From positions 1-54,767 of the forward strand of contig JAFVDW010000011.1 in assembly GCA_017478245.1 (NCBI GenBank): DNA of 54,767 bases. The letters are read 5' to 3'. The stretch comes from Lachnospiraceae bacterium (GTDB taxonomy: Bacteria > Bacillota > Clostridia > Lachnospirales > Lachnospiraceae). The number at the start of each line of letters is the position of its first letter. The first letter of the stretch is position 1. The notes below the pieces were generated by a model. That model was not told the DNA's origin. It made no database searches and saw nothing but the letters and a program-made list of their open reading frames with translations. A program made the translations under genes and the position numbers. Shown here one piece after another: positions 46,373 to 54,767 of the stretch.

Positions 46373-46619
46373 CAGTCAAATAACCAACAACAGGGAGCAT
46401 CTGAAAACACGGCAGAGCAGACCACCCCGACAATGCGGAAAATGTGCACGAGCAGGGAAATAATATCGGACAAGATTTGCCGTAGACCCACGAGGGATAT
46501 CAAGAGCGGGAACTATTGACCGCTCCCTGCCTTTTGGAAAGTTATGGAAATTTTCAAAAATCATTGAAATTGGGCGTGCTTTGCCGTATCATGAATATGA
46601 GGAAGTGGGTGATAAAACA

Positions 46620-47414
46620 ATGAATAAAGAGCAACAGCACCAAGAGGACTTACAGAGGCTAAGAGGCTTTCGTCTGATCGACGATGACTTTATGAACGCC
46701 TGCTTTGATGACAACATCGAGGGGACGGAGCTCATTCTGCGCATAATTCTTAATAAGCCTAATTTATCTGTCAAGAGCGTCAAGACGCAGAAGGTCATGA
46801 AGAACTTGTTGGGGCGTGATATATGGCTTGACATCGACGCAACGGACGGAGACAATGCAGAGCTTGATATAGAAATACAGCGAGCAGACAAAGGTGCTGA
46901 TCCTAAAAGAGCGAGGTATCATTCGAGTATTCTTGACGCACATTTATTAAAACCGAATGATGATTTTAAGGATTTGCCCGAAACCTATGTGATTTTCATT
47001 ACCGAAAATGATGTAATTGGTGATAACGAGCCGATATATATTATAGACAGACAAATCATCACTACAGGAAAGTCGTTTAACGATGGCGAGCATATCATCT
47101 ATGTAAACGGAGCAGATAAGAATCGTGCAACGGAATTAGGAAAGTTAATGCATGACTTCTTTTGCACAAACCCTGATGATATGCATTTCAAACAGTTAGC
47201 AGACAGGGCAAGGTATTTCAAGGAAGATGAGAGAGGAGTGGCAACGATGTGCAAGGTTATGGAAGATATGAGAAACGAAACCGCAGAGCGGACAAAAATC
47301 CAATCCGCAATGAATTTGTTGAAGCTTGGGAAATTATCATTTGAGGAAATAGCCAATGCAATGGAATTATCGGTCGAGAAAGTAAAAGAATTGGCTATGC
47401 CAAAAACAGTTTAA
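46620..47414 (+). CDS. PD-(D/E)XK nuclease family transposase / Rpn-like protein
   Basis: 264 aa. The nuclease core shows LGRDIWLDIDATDG followed by AELDIEIQRADKG, the Asp and ExQ residues of the PDDEXK_2 transposase/Rpn family. The C-terminus carries a short helix-turn-helix-like segment (LSFEEIANAMELSVEKVKELA). Such proteins occur in multiple genomic copies and promote recombination. The ATG at 46620 has AGGAAGTGGG upstream; the TTG at 46581 adds 13 residues. No terminal inverted repeats were found, so no IS is called. Confidence 0.85.
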   Translation: MNKEQQHQEDLQRLRGFRLIDDDFMNACFDDNIEGTELILRIILNKPNLSVKSVKTQKVMKNLLGRDIWLDIDATDGDNAELDIEIQRADKGADPKRARYHSSILDAHLLKPNDDFKDLPETYVIFITENDVIGDNEPIYIIDRQIITTGKSFNDGEHIIYVNGADKNRATELGKLMHDFFCTNPDDMHFKQLADRARYFKEDERGVATMCKVMEDMRNETAERTKIQSAMNLLKLGKLSFEEIANAMELSVEKVKELAMPKTV

Positions 47415-49291: not shown

Positions 49292-52141
49292 TTAGAAAGC
49301 TGTTCCGTTCTCTCTAAATTCTCTAATCCTGTTCATCATTTCCTCCTGACTCATCACGCGCTCTAGCTTACAGGACTTGATCTTCATGCCGCCCTGTCCA
49401 AAGTAGAACTTCAGGAAGAAAGTAGTGTTAATCGCATCTACCGGCTCAATCACCTCTGTATGTACCTGAGTATCCTTGCCGGTCAGCGTAATTGTCTTCA
49501 ACAGTTCATGCTCCTTGAATACAGACAGGGGAACCTGTGCCAGTTCGCTGATGCCTTCTACATAACACTCTATCGTTAGTCTGTAACGCCCGCCACCTGC
49601 ATTCAACTGATACAAATTGGAGGCTCCTTTGGAGGTATCCATGGCTACAGCACTTTCTGCGCCATCCGGAGATACGATGTAGAACACCCCTTCTTCGTCA
49701 CTCTCGGAGACCTCACGCATCTCTCCATCGCCATCCAATTCCTGATCCTTCATAGCATCCAGTTCCATATCAAGAGGCGTCTTCTCCCCCAACATAAACT
49801 GCAATGCCGGCAGCTTTAACAGTACACCACAGATGTTTTTCGCAGTCCGCTGCAACTCGCTACGGGTCACAGTACCATTCTCCACCCCTTCTTTAGAAGT
49901 GTCCTGCGCAGTAGGCAGACCCGCATCCGGCATAACCATGTACAGATCATTTTGTGCCCTCACCATCACGGCAGTATGCGCCACCTGACCCTTCTCGCCT
50001 TCTTCATTACCCTGCGCCCACCAGTCAGTCATGACCGCACCGCCAAAGCCCCACTCACCGCGCAGTACTGTAGTCAACAGGTCGTAATTGCTTGCAGCAT
50101 GAATACCGTTGATACGATTATAGCTGGTCATAATCAGGAATGCGCCGCCCTCTTTGACCGCAATCTCATACCCTCTCAAATATATCTCTCTGAGCGCTCT
50201 CTCGGATACCACACAATCCACCACAGAACGCATAAACTCCTGATTGTTGCAGGCGAAATGCTTGATTGTACCGGTCACATTATATTTCTGCATACCCTTT
50301 AACTGCGCCGACGCCATCTTTCCGGTCACCAACGGATCTTCTGAAAAATATTCAAAATTCCTGCCATTCAAAGGATTGCGGTGAATATTCATGCCCGGTC
50401 CCAGCAAGGTATCAACATGATTCTTCCGCAGCTCCATGCCTTCATATTCATAAAGTGCTTCCGACAATTTCTCATTAAAAGAGCAAGCCAGACAAGTACC
50501 ATTCGGCATAGCAAATGCCTTGGTTCCACAGTCCATACGAATTCCACTGGGTCCATCCGAACATCCTGCCTTGGGAATTCCGTACTTCTGCAAAGCTTTG
50601 TTCACACCACCGAAAGCACCGGCAATTCCCGGTGTCACGCCTGCCGGCGACATTCCCTCGCCACGCACCATTGTCATCAGCTCATCATCACTCAGTTGTG
50701 CTACAAACTGATCCATGGTCGCCATACTCGCTCTCACGTCTTCCAGTTTGAATCCCTTATCTCCAGTGTATTTTAATTCCGTAGGAAGGTTTGCCTTTCT
50801 CCGCTCCATAGGGTCAATGGTTCTGGTCGGCGCCTCCTCGAAGGTAATCTCATAATTTGTCCCCTCTGTCGCTGTCGGTTTCAACCGCTTGAAATTCATC
50901 ACTGGAGCCATTACCTCCTGCAAGGTTTCGAACACCTCTAAGCCATCCTGCGTAAATTCAAATACTTCTTTCGCCTCTCTCACATCTCCACCGAGATAAA
51001 AACGATACGCCCCCTCTTCCAAAACATAGCTACTCTTATTCCCGGTGATTCCGCTGTCATCATAAGAAGCCAGTTCATATTTGGACACATGGAGTGTCAA
51101 AATTTCACTTTCTCCCGATGCCAGATTTTGCGTTTTATCAAAAGCACATAGCGCGCGTGCAGCTTTTCCCAACTTGCCCTGCGGTGCCTCTACATATACT
51201 AGCACAGCATCCTTTGCGTCCGCGTCACCGGTATTGGTGACCTGAATCTGCAGCGTCACCTCCTCCTTGGTCACCTCAGCAGACACAAGCGCTCTGTCAA
51301 ACGTGGTGTAGGACAAACCAAAACCGAATGGAAACATTACTTTCTCTTTTGCGAAAGTCTCAAAATAGCGATACCCAACATAGATATCCTCTACATACAC
51401 ATTGCGCTCCGGATCACCATGATACGCAGTAGAAAAATAATCTTCTATATTGTAAGCAATGGTATCTGTCAAACGCCCCGAAGGAGCAATCGTCCCCTTC
51501 AACACATCCAGCACTCCGTTACCGCCTTCCTGACCGCCTTGCCATACATAGAGCACAGCGGAAGGATTCACTTCCTCCATCCACTTCATATCAATAATAT
51601 TGCCCACATTCAAAAGCACTACGGTACGTTCAAAACGCCCACATACCTTTTTCAACATATCATACTCAATATCGGTGAGCAGGTAACTTCCTGCCTCCGC
51701 CTTGCTATCCTTATCCTCTCCTGCGGTACGTCCTACAATAATTACAGCCAAGTCAGATTCTGCAGCAGCCTCATCCACCAGCTCTTCTGTCAGTGGCATT
51801 TCCTCCTGAAACCAGGGCTCCTGTGCCCAGCCTTGTCCCACATCAAAAGGATGGTCAACAATCCACTCCTCATACGCCTTACGAACAGTCTCATTCAGTT
51901 CAATTTCTTCATCCGCCTCCAGCGCCTCATAAATGCCGGTCACATATCTGGTGTTCACTAAGCCTCCGGAACCAGTTCCGCTTTTATAATAATTGAACTG
52001 TGTCCGCCCAAACAGTGCTACTTTTTTGTTACCGACGAGAGGAAGTACCCCACCCTCATTTTTAATCAGTACGATGCCTTCCCCCACTGCCGCCCTTGCC
52101 AGTGCCGCATAGGTTTCAAGGTTAAATTTCTGCACGCCCAT
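49292..52141 (-). CDS. glycoside hydrolase family 3 beta-glucosidase, permuted domain order
   Basis: 949 aa, no signal peptide, so cytosolic. The order is reversed compared with typical GH3: the alpha/beta-sandwich domain comes first (EGIVLIKNEGGVLPL near residue 25), then a fibronectin-III-like domain (about 290-400), then the (beta/alpha)8 barrel with GCSDGPSGIRMD and the nucleophile region GGAVMTDWWAQGN (Asp near 705), and a C-terminal beta-rich domain. This permutation is known from Butyrivibrio and Ruminococcus enzymes. It likely hydrolyses beta-glucosides or short beta-glucans imported after extracellular digestion. AAAGGAG precedes the ATG. Confidence 0.93.
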   Translation of the reverse strand: MGVQKFNLETYAALARAAVGEGIVLIKNEGGVLPLVGNKKVALFGRTQFNYYKSGTGSGGLVNTRYVTGIYEALEADEEIELNETVRKAYEEWIVDHPFDVGQGWAQEPWFQEEMPLTEELVDEAAAESDLAVIIVGRTAGEDKDSKAEAGSYLLTDIEYDMLKKVCGRFERTVVLLNVGNIIDMKWMEEVNPSAVLYVWQGGQEGGNGVLDVLKGTIAPSGRLTDTIAYNIEDYFSTAYHGDPERNVYVEDIYVGYRYFETFAKEKVMFPFGFGLSYTTFDRALVSAEVTKEEVTLQIQVTNTGDADAKDAVLVYVEAPQGKLGKAARALCAFDKTQNLASGESEILTLHVSKYELASYDDSGITGNKSSYVLEEGAYRFYLGGDVREAKEVFEFTQDGLEVFETLQEVMAPVMNFKRLKPTATEGTNYEITFEEAPTRTIDPMERRKANLPTELKYTGDKGFKLEDVRASMATMDQFVAQLSDDELMTMVRGEGMSPAGVTPGIAGAFGGVNKALQKYGIPKAGCSDGPSGIRMDCGTKAFAMPNGTCLACSFNEKLSEALYEYEGMELRKNHVDTLLGPGMNIHRNPLNGRNFEYFSEDPLVTGKMASAQLKGMQKYNVTGTIKHFACNNQEFMRSVVDCVVSERALREIYLRGYEIAVKEGGAFLIMTSYNRINGIHAASNYDLLTTVLRGEWGFGGAVMTDWWAQGNEEGEKGQVAHTAVMVRAQNDLYMVMPDAGLPTAQDTSKEGVENGTVTRSELQRTAKNICGVLLKLPALQFMLGEKTPLDMELDAMKDQELDGDGEMREVSESDEEGVFYIVSPDGAESAVAMDTSKGASNLYQLNAGGGRYRLTIECYVEGISELAQVPLSVFKEHELLKTITLTGKDTQVHTEVIEPVDAINTTFFLKFYFGQGGMKIKSCKLERVMSQEEMMNRIREFRENGTAF

Positions 52142-52400
52142 AATACGTCTCCTTTAATGATAATTTCAGTGTAAAATTCATTTCTTACATGGTAACACAT
52201 TATGGGGAAATCCTCAATTTGTTTTTTGGTATCTTTAATCTCATTTTTTAGGTGATTATTTGCTGAATATAACTGCTCATTATCTCTAACTGAAGTAAAA
52301 AGTTAAATTCCTCTTTTTTCATATCTGGGTAGAATTACGTCACAAGTAGAATTTAATCTTTCACACAGCCAACATAAATGATAAGGTATTTATTGTCCTT
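52142..52400. other. AT-rich intergenic region
   Basis: About 260 bases between the GH3 start and the first CRISPR repeat. I see no gene, no clear promoter and no RNA structure beyond the GH3 ribosome binding site. Confidence 0.4.
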
Positions 52401-52497
52401 CTGACAGCTCGCACCTCCGCAAAGGGCGTGACTTTTTTGTGATTAAGAGTACGCTTGAACTTGGTATTTCAATCCACACACCCGCAAGGGGTGTGAC
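52401..52497 (-). CRISPR. detached leader-distal end of a type I-C-like CRISPR array
   Basis: A degenerate 32-base repeat (52401-52432, 21 of 32 positions matching), a 33-base spacer (52433-52465) and one perfect 32-base repeat (52466-52497). The perfect copy is identical to those at 54606-54767. The repeat reads ATTTCAATCCACACACC at its left end on the plus strand, so the transcribed orientation (ending GGATTGAAAT) is minus. The degenerate copy at the far end is typical of the leader-distal terminus. Confidence 0.85.
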
Positions 52498-52503
52498 ATA
52501 GCC

Positions 52504-54094
52504 ATGCGCGAGCCAGGCTATAGCCCGACCCGAATCAGATCGAAAGCCCTAAAGATGCTGCAGGCGGATAAGGATTTCCAGAAATCCGTGGCAGAAAACA
52601 CACTGGAACACAAGAAAAAAGTACAGGAGCTCCTAAAGCAGATTGAAATAGAGGCATTCTGGGCAACCAAAGAGGTTATGTCCGGAACAGCTAAAATGTC
52701 ATAAGCAAACGACCTCTCCATCTGGGAGGAGGGAGCAAGAAGTTGACTGATGATTCATACCTGGCAAAATTGGCAGAAGCGATGACAAAGCACTTATAAA
52801 AGTATGCTCCGGCAGCTTTAGCGAAGAAAAGGTCTTAGAAGAGACTATCCACAATCTGGCACAGTCGGGATTGCGCTCCATTGATTTTGCATCCGGCTAC
52901 TCTATGCAGTTGGATACGGCGGTGCGACTGGCACTCAGAACCGGAGCGCATCAGCTTGCTGCCAAGATTACAGACCAAAATATTATCAACACAGGAGAAA
53001 ATCTGGTATATGTGTCAGAGCATTGGGGAGCGCGAAACGAGGGGATAGGACATGCAAATCATGAACAGTGGCAAGGGAAGGTATATTTTATCAAAGACGG
53101 TACCAATTACTCCAAAGAGGCAAAAAGGATTGGACAAGACAGAATCATGTCGTTATGGTATGCTACCGGATATAGTGTAGATGGAAGCAGGGAGAATGAC
53201 CCTCTGGGGCTAAATGGCTACAACTGCCGGCATAATCATTATGTTTGGTTTGAGGGTGCATCCTCACTGCCGACCAAAAACCCGGAACCCAAACCGGTCA
53301 CCATAGGAGAGAGAACTTACGACTATTACGCCATGACACAAAAGATGCGCGCCATGGAGCGTGCTGTGAGAGCCCTAAAAAAGGAAAAAGAGGCACTTAA
53401 GGCTCTCAATATGGATACCACTCAAATACAAGACAAAATCAAGCGCAAAACGAGCCAATACTATGATTTCTGCGAGAAGTGCAAGGTGAAAGATAAATCC
53501 GAGCGGCTACGATATGAATGTGGTACCTCTGAGCTGAAAAAGACAAAGGCGTGGAATGGGTTTGAAGCATCAGTAATACCTGAGAAAAACTTGAAAAAGA
53601 AGGAAAGAGAGGTTGCTTACAAAGATATAACGGAAAAGTGGATTTCAAATGCAACACCAAACAGTCATGAAGTAAAAGACCTACTGGAATACACTATCAA
53701 CGGTGTTACATATAAGATTGATGGACATAATGTGGTCAGAACATGAAAAGCAAATCGCGGAAATGTTGGAAAGACAAGTTGGAGGAGAAATATATATGGT
53801 ACCGCGAATCAACAATCCTGCCAATATCTCCACACCGGATTATTTTTTAATCAACACAGGTATGACCTAAAAACTCTCACGGATCAGGCTACAGAGAACA
53901 CCATTTTCAACAGGGTAAAGAAAGCTAAGAGACAAACCAAACGATTTATCCTTGATCTCACAGAGTTCCCTTTAACCGACGAAGTAATCAATAGTCAAAT
54001 TGATAGGATATTCTGGTCAAAAGACACAATGTTTGTGGAAGAACTTGTTCTCGTGCGAGAATATAAAATAGTCAAGGTATTTGCGAGAAAATAA
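52504..54094 (+). pseudogene. decayed phage minor capsid protein gene with CdiA-like nuclease tail
   Basis: Fragments in all three frames together spell a phage minor head protein. 52504-52704 gives the N-terminal part (RIRSKALKMLQADKDF), interrupted by TAA at 52702. 52708-52799 continues with NDLSIWEEGAR and, after a shift, KLTDDSYLAKLAEAM. From about 52754 the frame LAQSGLRSIDFASGYSMQLD runs through GLNGYNCRHNHYVWFEGAS to TGA at about 53744. A short segment in the +1 frame (HEKQIAEMLERQVGGEIYM, TPDYFLIN) follows, then the original frame resumes near 53855 (HRYDLKTLTDQATENTIFN) and ends at 54094. The TPDY...YDLKT pair is a PD-(D/E)XK signature as in CdiA C-terminal tRNA nuclease-like toxins. 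At least five lesions, so non-functional. Confidence 0.8.
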
Positions 54095-54219
54095 AAAGAG
54101 GCTGACACGCCGTCACATCTCAAAAGAGAATTCACGAAAACAACGACCAACCTCTTTTATTAATTAAAGTATATCACAAATGTATAATTCTATACAAGGT
54201 TTTATTATAAATTTCTTAC

Positions 54220-54248
54220 TTGCAAATAACATAATCCACTGTTATAAT
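54220..54248 (+). promoter_or_regulatory. promoter of the KTR peptide gene
   Basis: TTGCAA (54220-54225) and TATAAT (54243-54248), 17-base spacer, about 47 bases before the start codon. Confidence 0.6.
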
Positions 54249-54294
54249 AGACGCGCGAAACATAAATAACGATTATAACAAAGAGGTGGTTATA

Positions 54295-54462
54295 ATGCAG
54301 TCGTTTTGGGTGTCATGTCCCAAATGTGGTTATCCGCATTTTATCAAACGTTATACAAAAACGGAATTGAGAAATTTCCCGGCATATTGCAAGGGATGTA
54401 AAAAAGAAATTAATATAACATTAAAGAGCCGAGAGCCTAGTAAATCAGTACAACTGGTTTAG
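54295..54462 (+). CDS. cysteine-rich KTR family protein
   Basis: 55 aa with two CxxC pairs, CPKCGY near the start and CKGCKK in the middle, a zinc-ribbon-like pattern. FWVSCPKCG and the basic KRYTKTELRNFPAYC segment fit the cysteine-rich KTR family often found on phages, integrative elements and near their ends. RBS AAGAGGTGG lies about six bases before the ATG. The last codons overlap a terminator hairpin. Function unknown; nucleic-acid binding is plausible. Confidence 0.75.
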   Translation: MQSFWVSCPKCGYPHFIKRYTKTELRNFPAYCKGCKKEINITLKSREPSKSVQLV

Positions 54463-54474
54463 TTAGGCTCTTTT
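54433..54474 (+). terminator. terminator hairpin overlapping the KTR stop
   Basis: GAGCCTA (54433-54439) pairs with TAGGCTC (54464-54470); the interior TAAATCAGT / ACTGGTTTA extends the stem with small mismatches, then TTTT. The stem begins inside the coding sequence. Confidence 0.7.
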
Positions 54475-54481
54475 ATGTTAC

Positions 54482-54551
54482 TGCGAAACGAGTGTGGCGG
54501 CTCACCTGTTTTATATTACAAGGGTCGCAGATTCGACTCCTGCTTTCGCGA
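54482..54551 (+). tRNA. degenerate tRNA-like sequence
   Basis: TGCGAAA (54482-54488) pairs with TTTCGCG (54544-54550), and an A sits in the discriminator position. A T-arm GCAGA-TTCGACT-CCTGC with one mismatch and a weak D-arm (GTG/CAC around TGGCGGCT) are present. The anticodon arm is poor: CCTGT pairs ACA-A-GG with a bulge and the loop has eight bases. No CCA is encoded. It may be a pseudo-tRNA, a phage-borne tRNA-like element or a tRNA-derived attachment site. Confidence 0.35.
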
Positions 54552-54605
54552 TTTCCGAACTGCAGAAAAAGCAGTTAAAAATCATTGTAAAGGAGAGAAT
54601 ATCAT

Positions 54606-54767
54606 ATTTCAATCCACACACCCGCAAGGGGTGTGACGGGATTTGTCAAAAGGCATAATCCACATATCGGATTTCAATCCACACACCCGCAAGGGGTGTG
54701 ACGCCGTCTTGAATTGCCCGTACCATGTCGGTGTTATTTCAATCCACACACCCGCAAGGGGTGTGAC
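54606..54767 (-). CRISPR. type I-C-like CRISPR array, continuing beyond the window
   Basis: Three perfect 32-base repeats (54606-54637, 54671-54702, 54736-54767) and two 33-base spacers (54638-54670, 54703-54735). The last repeat ends at the final base of the window. Repeat length, the CACACCC-GCAA-GGGGTGTG stem and the ATTTCAATCC terminus match type I-C repeats. Polarity predicts transcription on the minus strand with leader and cas genes to the right, outside this window; the subtype is therefore an inference from the repeat. Confidence 0.95.

Follow-up and report, generated by a model that had tools for sequence, protein, structure and literature searches.

The closest described parallel to the locus analysed here is SiL-E1, a stretch of pING1-like plasmid DNA of about 2 kb that lies exactly between two repeats of the array CRISPR_2 in Sulfolobus islandicus LAL14/1 (PMC3718332). 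Its authors termed it a pseudo-spacer and knew of no earlier description of such large spacers; it contains several genes, is reported to be missing from other S. islandicus strains and could, in their view, have arisen either when a protospacer was wrongly processed or when the plasmid recombined with matching spacers already present (PMC3718332). A mobile insert within an array has also been described in S. solfataricus, where ISC1359 is inserted in spacer 28 (PMC3025118). Our search of the open-licence literature found no further pseudo-spacers of the SiL-E1 kind.

The window, i.e. the whole 54,767-nt stretch of DNA that was analysed, is an entire contig (C119) of a bacterial genome of 119 contigs (2.49 Mb, 95% complete), which from its fragmentation and the nature of its relatives we take to be a metagenome bin. 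At the right-hand end of the window, 2,108 bp of decayed phage DNA stand between two complete and identical repeats of a CRISPR array (52497 to 54606). As in SiL-E1, the similarity extends up to the repeats on both sides (PMC3718332). SiL-E1 involves an archaeon, a subtype I-A array, conjugative-plasmid DNA with five ORFs and the genome of a cultured strain (PMC3718332), whereas our case involves a bacterium, a type I-C array, phage head genes that are clearly decayed and a draft genome bin. The ISC1359 insertion shares with it the position within an array but arose when the element transposed into a spacer behind a short target site (PMC3025118), whereas our segment has no transposase in the ORF pieces scanned and both of its edges are repeat edges. 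If real, the locus would be the second such pseudo-spacer in the open-licence literature and the first in a bacterium. Its features are as follows, S_L and S_R denoting the putative spacers at the left and right edges:

52401..52432, minus strand: degenerate terminal repeat at the leader-distal end of the array, 21/32 identical to the consensus
52433..52465, minus strand: ordinary spacer, 33 nt
52466..52497, minus strand: type I-C repeat, reading GTCACACCCCTTGCGGGTGTGTGGATTGAAAT on that strand, exact copy
52498..54605, plus strand: candidate pseudo-spacer, decayed phage DNA of 2,108 bp with a perfect repeat on either side
52498..52531, minus strand: putative spacer/protospacer S_L, 34 nt, which array and phage would have in common, with homology up to the repeat edge
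52532..52534, minus strand: GAA on the plus strand, which on the crRNA-sense strand reads as a TTC PAM immediately 5' of S_L
52498..52783, plus strand: 5' part of a minor-capsid gene, gene start missing
52784..53746, plus strand: remaining minor-capsid frame (Phage_min_cap2)
53703..54094, plus strand: broken frame covering the capsid end and a CdiA_C-type toxin tail
54286..54462, plus strand: small cysteine-rich KTR gene, part of the phage module (PF14205 and synteny)
54480..54551, plus strand: phage tRNA gene, decayed (relatives have tRNA-Met or tRNA-Arg)
54572..54605, minus strand: putative spacer/protospacer S_R, assumed to be 34 nt, apparently cut off after the first two start-codon bases of a scaffold-like phage gene
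54606..54637, minus strand: type I-C repeat, exact copy
54638..54670, minus strand: ordinary spacer, 33 nt
54671..54702, minus strand: type I-C repeat, exact copy
54703..54735, minus strand: ordinary spacer, 33 nt
54736..54767, minus strand: type I-C repeat, exact copy, its last base being the end of the contig

The preliminary description of this DNA had reported identical 32-nt repeats at 52466-52497 and from 54606 onward and had read them as one array split by phage DNA. The first statement holds and the second is supported: the repeat ATTTCAATCCACACACCCGCAAGGGGTGTGAC is present in four exact copies (52466-52497, 54606-54637, 54671-54702 and 54736-54767), and a search allowing up to three mismatches found no further copy elsewhere in the genome bin. 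From one repeat start to the next the distance is 65 bp, except for the 2,140 bp that span the phage segment. Arrays can be oriented by the terminal letters GTGGATTGAAAT of the repeat, and since it is the minus-strand repeat that ends in them, the leader should lie to the right, off the contig. This orientation, together with the degenerate repeat at the left, identifies the left piece as leader-distal, again in agreement with what had been proposed.

With 32-nt repeats and three spacers that are all 33 nt long, the array has the dimensions of type I-C, for which spacers of 32-37 nt are known from P. aeruginosa (PMC7913775). The corresponding operon is found on contig C12 in the order cas3-cas5c-cas8c-cas7-cas4-cas1, the contig stopping inside cas1. 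NCBIfam models scored above their cut-offs for Cas5c (7e-73), Cas8c (1e-94), Cas7 (6e-104), Cas4 (3e-34) and the Cas3 core (7e-34); Cas1c (7e-76) fell below its own cut-off, the gene being truncated by the contig end, while the general cas1 model scored above cut-off. We infer that the missing cas2, the leader and the front of the array would bridge C12 and the window contig.

That an array split in this way is unusual, as the preliminary description had also said, is supported by the arrays of relatives. Arrays were obtained from 10 of the 11 loci supplied, and in the array pieces examined 161 of 162 inter-repeat gaps measured 33-38 nt, the sole odd one containing a run of N. With that gap left out (n=161), spacers of 33 nt were counted 34 times, 34 nt 58 times, 35 nt 43 times, 36 nt 21 times, 37 nt four times and 38 nt once, so that 34 nt is the mode (58/161).

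The interrupting DNA is one collinear piece of a phage, comprising a capsid gene without its start, a CdiA_C tail, the KTR gene, the decayed tRNA gene and what looks like the ribosome-binding site of the next gene followed by the letters AT. The minor capsid was identified far above chance (Pfam PF06152, 4.8e-51; PHROG 581, 4.7e-44), the toxin tail is of the CdiA_C family (PF18451, 3e-15) and the small gene matches the KTR family (PF14205, 2.6e-9). The KTR gene and a tRNA-like sequence had been listed earlier as items beside the phage DNA; the gene stands, the tRNA-like sequence is not an intact tRNA (ARAGORN found none in the window), and both belong to the same phage module rather than being separate material. 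The tRNA-like stretch aligns with phage-internal tRNA genes of relatives, for which reason we rejected it as an attachment site, and at its position a tRNA-Met or tRNA-Arg stands in 7 of the 8 relative loci scanned, L045 being the one without. Rfam gave no match to 52200-54767 up to an E-value of 0.1.

Phages and prophages with the same head module (e.g. L009, L025, L028, L045 and L050) likewise have a minor capsid with a variable tail, followed, where these could be seen, by KTR, tRNA and the scaffold-like gene; in L009, L025 and L028 the order capsid, KTR, tRNA and next gene is the same as in the window. The amino-acid identity to such relatives is 67-76% over 250 codons in 19 comparisons. 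They differ from the window in that the capsid gene is open in L009, L025 and L028 and in that the module lies among phage genes and not among CRISPR repeats. A comparison with phage databases, as had been suggested earlier, did return a phage but no near-identical parent: the segment had one match among GenBank phages (65% over 18% of the query) and none in a plasmid search, and IMG/VR yielded no near-identical parent by exact 19- to 32-mers or by a degenerate motif, six matches containing the 19-mer only, with differing bases around it. When the spacers of the relatives and of the window were compared with the retrieved loci, only matches of 14-17 nt were obtained, too short for a local PAM.

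A stop codon at 52702-52704 interrupts the capsid gene, which has also lost 1 nt near 52733 and about 103 bp near 52772-52783; further on, the capsid/toxin sequence goes out of frame near 53740 and returns to it near 53858. With this stop, these two deletions and two frame changes, decay has gone too far for the segment to belong to a live phage; the adjoining gene of 949 codons is open, which makes a generally error-ridden assembly unlikely. The mean ratio of changes at codon positions (1+2)/3 was 0.35 between the window and its relatives as against 0.37 (sd 0.04) when relatives were compared with one another in 165 pairs. Of the 21 relatives with this stretch, 19 entered the comparison with the window (L007 and L047 did not, presumably because of a length filter), and some relatives are duplicated genomes. 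This substitution pattern, resembling that between relatives, suggests that inactivation was recent.

At the left edge, ATAGCCATG agrees with L027 in 9 of 9 bases up to the last base of the repeat, and the other five aligned relatives have ATG and part of the remaining letters in common with it. The homology therefore begins at the repeat edge itself and not, as had been stated, within seven bases of it. One spacer length inside this leader-distal edge, after 34 nt, a PAM is present (GAA at 52532-52534), TTC being the type I-C consensus from P. aeruginosa (PMC7913775), which may not be that of this host. S_L was taken as 34 nt because this is the commonest spacer length in the relatives; a GAA would be met by chance from a random segment start in 2.9% of cases at exactly 34 nt and in 11% at 33-36 nt. 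S_L occurs once in the bin at up to three mismatches.

The right end of the segment reads AAAGGAGAGAATATC-AT, and the AT stands 8 nt behind a ribosome-binding site, a spacing by which it appears to be the first two bases of the start codon of the next phage gene. The start of this gene in the relatives is ATGAA in 15 of 16 loci and ATGGAA in one, the 16 being those of 31 loci scanned in which a gene start could be identified among the candidates (duplicates included, about 11 distinct). From the relatives, a GAA PAM is thus predicted just beyond the right edge, in the place now held by the repeat. The ribosome-binding site and the AT fit the layout in the relatives, whose own letters differ, so that the similarity reaches both repeats without unaccounted bases, at the left by L027 and at the right by layout. 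Like S_L, S_R has a single occurrence in the bin (up to three mismatches), and the two putative protospacers share one orientation and follow the order of the array.

Joins that lie at repeat edges and are placed like spacers relative to a type I-C PAM, seen at the left and predicted at the right, point to a crossing between spacers and protospacers, either in DNA or in an assembly path. Whatever the route, it is probable on this reading of the sequence that both edges are spacer/protospacer boundaries. Our preferred explanation, to which we give a little less than an even chance, is a CRISPR pseudo-spacer formed by recombination in the cell between a phage and two pre-existing spacers; we infer, in other words, that both edges were once spacers and that the join was made in the cell. 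The array would formerly have held two normal spacers from one phage source, S_L leader-distal and S_R leader-proximal, their protospacers lying on one phage strand at a distance of about 2 kb. Crossovers at the two 34-bp identities between the array and a phage or prophage with both protospacers would have exchanged the repeats and spacers between S_R and S_L for the intervening 2.1 kb of phage DNA, a fragment that would have had no function in the array and whose capsid/toxin gene would then have decayed. The shared orientation and collinearity of the putative protospacers are what a double crossover requires. A Campbell-type single crossover at one spacer was also considered and rejected: it predicts a second S_L before the right repeat, and S_L was found once. 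The preliminary description, which had named recombination between an array and a prophage remnant as one of two origins, came close to this explanation but overlooked the spacer-edge joins and their PAMs.

Recombination and direct integration of a large fragment can be told apart by sequence: under the former a PAM is expected within the segment, at one spacer length from its distal edge, and under the latter it is not. A PAM-sized offset of this kind is readable at our left edge, and the passages on SiL-E1 contain no such test (PMC3718332); in our case the left PAM favours the second of the options given there, recombination with matching spacers. If this is what happened, spacers would be more than memory: they would also offer short homology arms by which a phage could overwrite the very array directed against it.

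Against a join made in the cell, recombination over 34 bp is inefficient, the contig comes from a fragmented draft genome and ends within the array, and shared 34-mers are precisely the segments able to mislead a de Bruijn graph. An assembly chimera, although we rank it below an in-cell join, is nearly as likely. An array with S_L and S_R would have been assembled such that the path switched at S_L to a decayed remnant elsewhere, carrying both protospacers and belonging to the same strain, another strain or another species, and switched back at S_R. The junctions lie exactly at the 34-nt stretches that array and phage would have in common, the genome is in 119 contigs with this one terminating on a repeat, and the contig with the cas operon breaks in cas1, which means that the rest of the array was left out of the assembly; assembling arrays from short reads has moreover been described as prone to chimeric contigs (PMC6617893). 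For such a chimera the assembler would have had to go wrong twice, independently, over a single 2.1 kb piece while resolving the adjacent repeat units, and the bin contains no second S_L, no second S_R and no copy of the neighbouring portal gene, the same portal query being positive in 5 of 6 relatives, although the remnant may be unbinned or lack these. Major-capsid genes were likewise not found in the bin with two types of query, a result to which we give no weight, the first query finding only 2 of 6 relatives and the second having no control. An exact repeat search of two collections, which may omit this genome's own records, returned no second assembly of the array. Should the locus prove to be an artefact, it would supply a simple warning sign, namely edges that stand one spacer length away from a PAM, by which CRISPR-phage fusions in draft and metagenome assemblies can be filtered.

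The remaining explanations place the join in the cell by other routes. A giant spacer, formed when Cas4-Cas1-Cas2 integrated 2.1 kb of phage DNA at the leader without trimming it, with duplication of the repeat and later spacers added in front, needs only one event, accounts for the exact repeat edges and the duplicated repeat, and is helped by the PAM predicted at the right edge, the one edge that would need it. It would amount to a casposon-like integration by a modern CRISPR integrase (or host partners) next to a correct 5' PAM, with the left PAM a coincidence. We consider it unlikely, given that it does not predict the GAA 34 nt inside the left edge (see above for the chance values) and that known integrases measure spacer length. 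In its favour, faulty protospacer processing was named as possible for SiL-E1 (PMC3718332). The two origins that do not involve spacers at all are much less probable still. Illegitimate recombination, insertion of a mobile element or a prophage remnant that ends at the repeats by happenstance would suit the nature of the DNA, a decayed prophage remnant, but this is a very improbable account of two edges that both fall at repeats and at spacer-like distances from PAMs. The insertion of mobile DNA, the other origin named in the preliminary description, finds no support either: Pfam detected no integrase or transposase in the 12 ORF pieces of 52498-54605, seven of which gave no match at all, the tRNA-like sequence corresponds to a phage gene in relatives and not to an attachment site, and apart from the CRISPR repeat itself there is no target duplication at the segment ends, where it had been suggested to look for one, and no terminal repeat in or around the segment, so that mobile insertion with target duplication was rejected. 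Finally, integration of viral genomes at similar repeats has been envisaged (PMC8616872), and recombination of the array with repeat copies (solitary repeat units) on the phage would also leave repeat-exact edges. Nevertheless, this seems the least probable of all, since the phage would need two repeats, one of them inside a minor-capsid gene that is uninterrupted there in relatives; the exact repeat is absent from the viral contigs searched, and the PAM at 34 nt is left unexplained.

In the genomes of the genus, this repeat type occurs in 20 of 138 (at most one mismatch), a survey that is uninformative on the frequency of kilobase-sized gaps. One genome, G058, has a 189-nt gap that consists mostly of N. 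The flank to the left of the array (query 51000-52400) has matches in 92 of the 138 genomes, the longest outside the window being 71% over 1,121 bp.

In the phage family related to the remnant, the C-terminal part of the minor-capsid protein varies between members, and with this tail the protein resembles a head protein fused to a polymorphic toxin. The CdiA_C domain scan covered the remnant and the relative locus L026, and CdiA_C forms this region in both; the tails in three further relatives appear to differ from these two.

Minor-capsid genes
52784-54094, window remnant, CdiA_C tail
L026:3469-5331, CdiA_C tail
L025:4383-6164, other tail
L028:2226-3995, other tail
L009:1197-2816, other tail

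A small, cysteine-rich KTR gene sits between the minor-capsid gene and the phage tRNA, and this capsid gene/KTR/tRNA synteny is conserved in the window, L009, L025 and L028. A tRNA-Met or tRNA-Arg gene was present in seven of the eight scanned loci of the family, in several phages immediately preceding the scaffold-like gene, mid head module.

KTR genes
54286-54462, window, Pfam match
L009:687-857, similarity
L025:6668-6829, similarity
L028:4250-4417, similarity
Phage tRNA genes (tRNA-Met or tRNA-Arg)
L009:555-629
L028:4454-4526
L025:6859-6934
L047:5617-5691

Contig C12 of this genome (G000) holds a type I-C cas operon (L044:7602-14784) that is probably the array's partner; the operon is truncated within cas1 at the contig end. 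Elsewhere in the window, a 277-aa ORF (46581-47414) presumably resembles Rpn/PD-(D/E)XK transposase-like nucleases.
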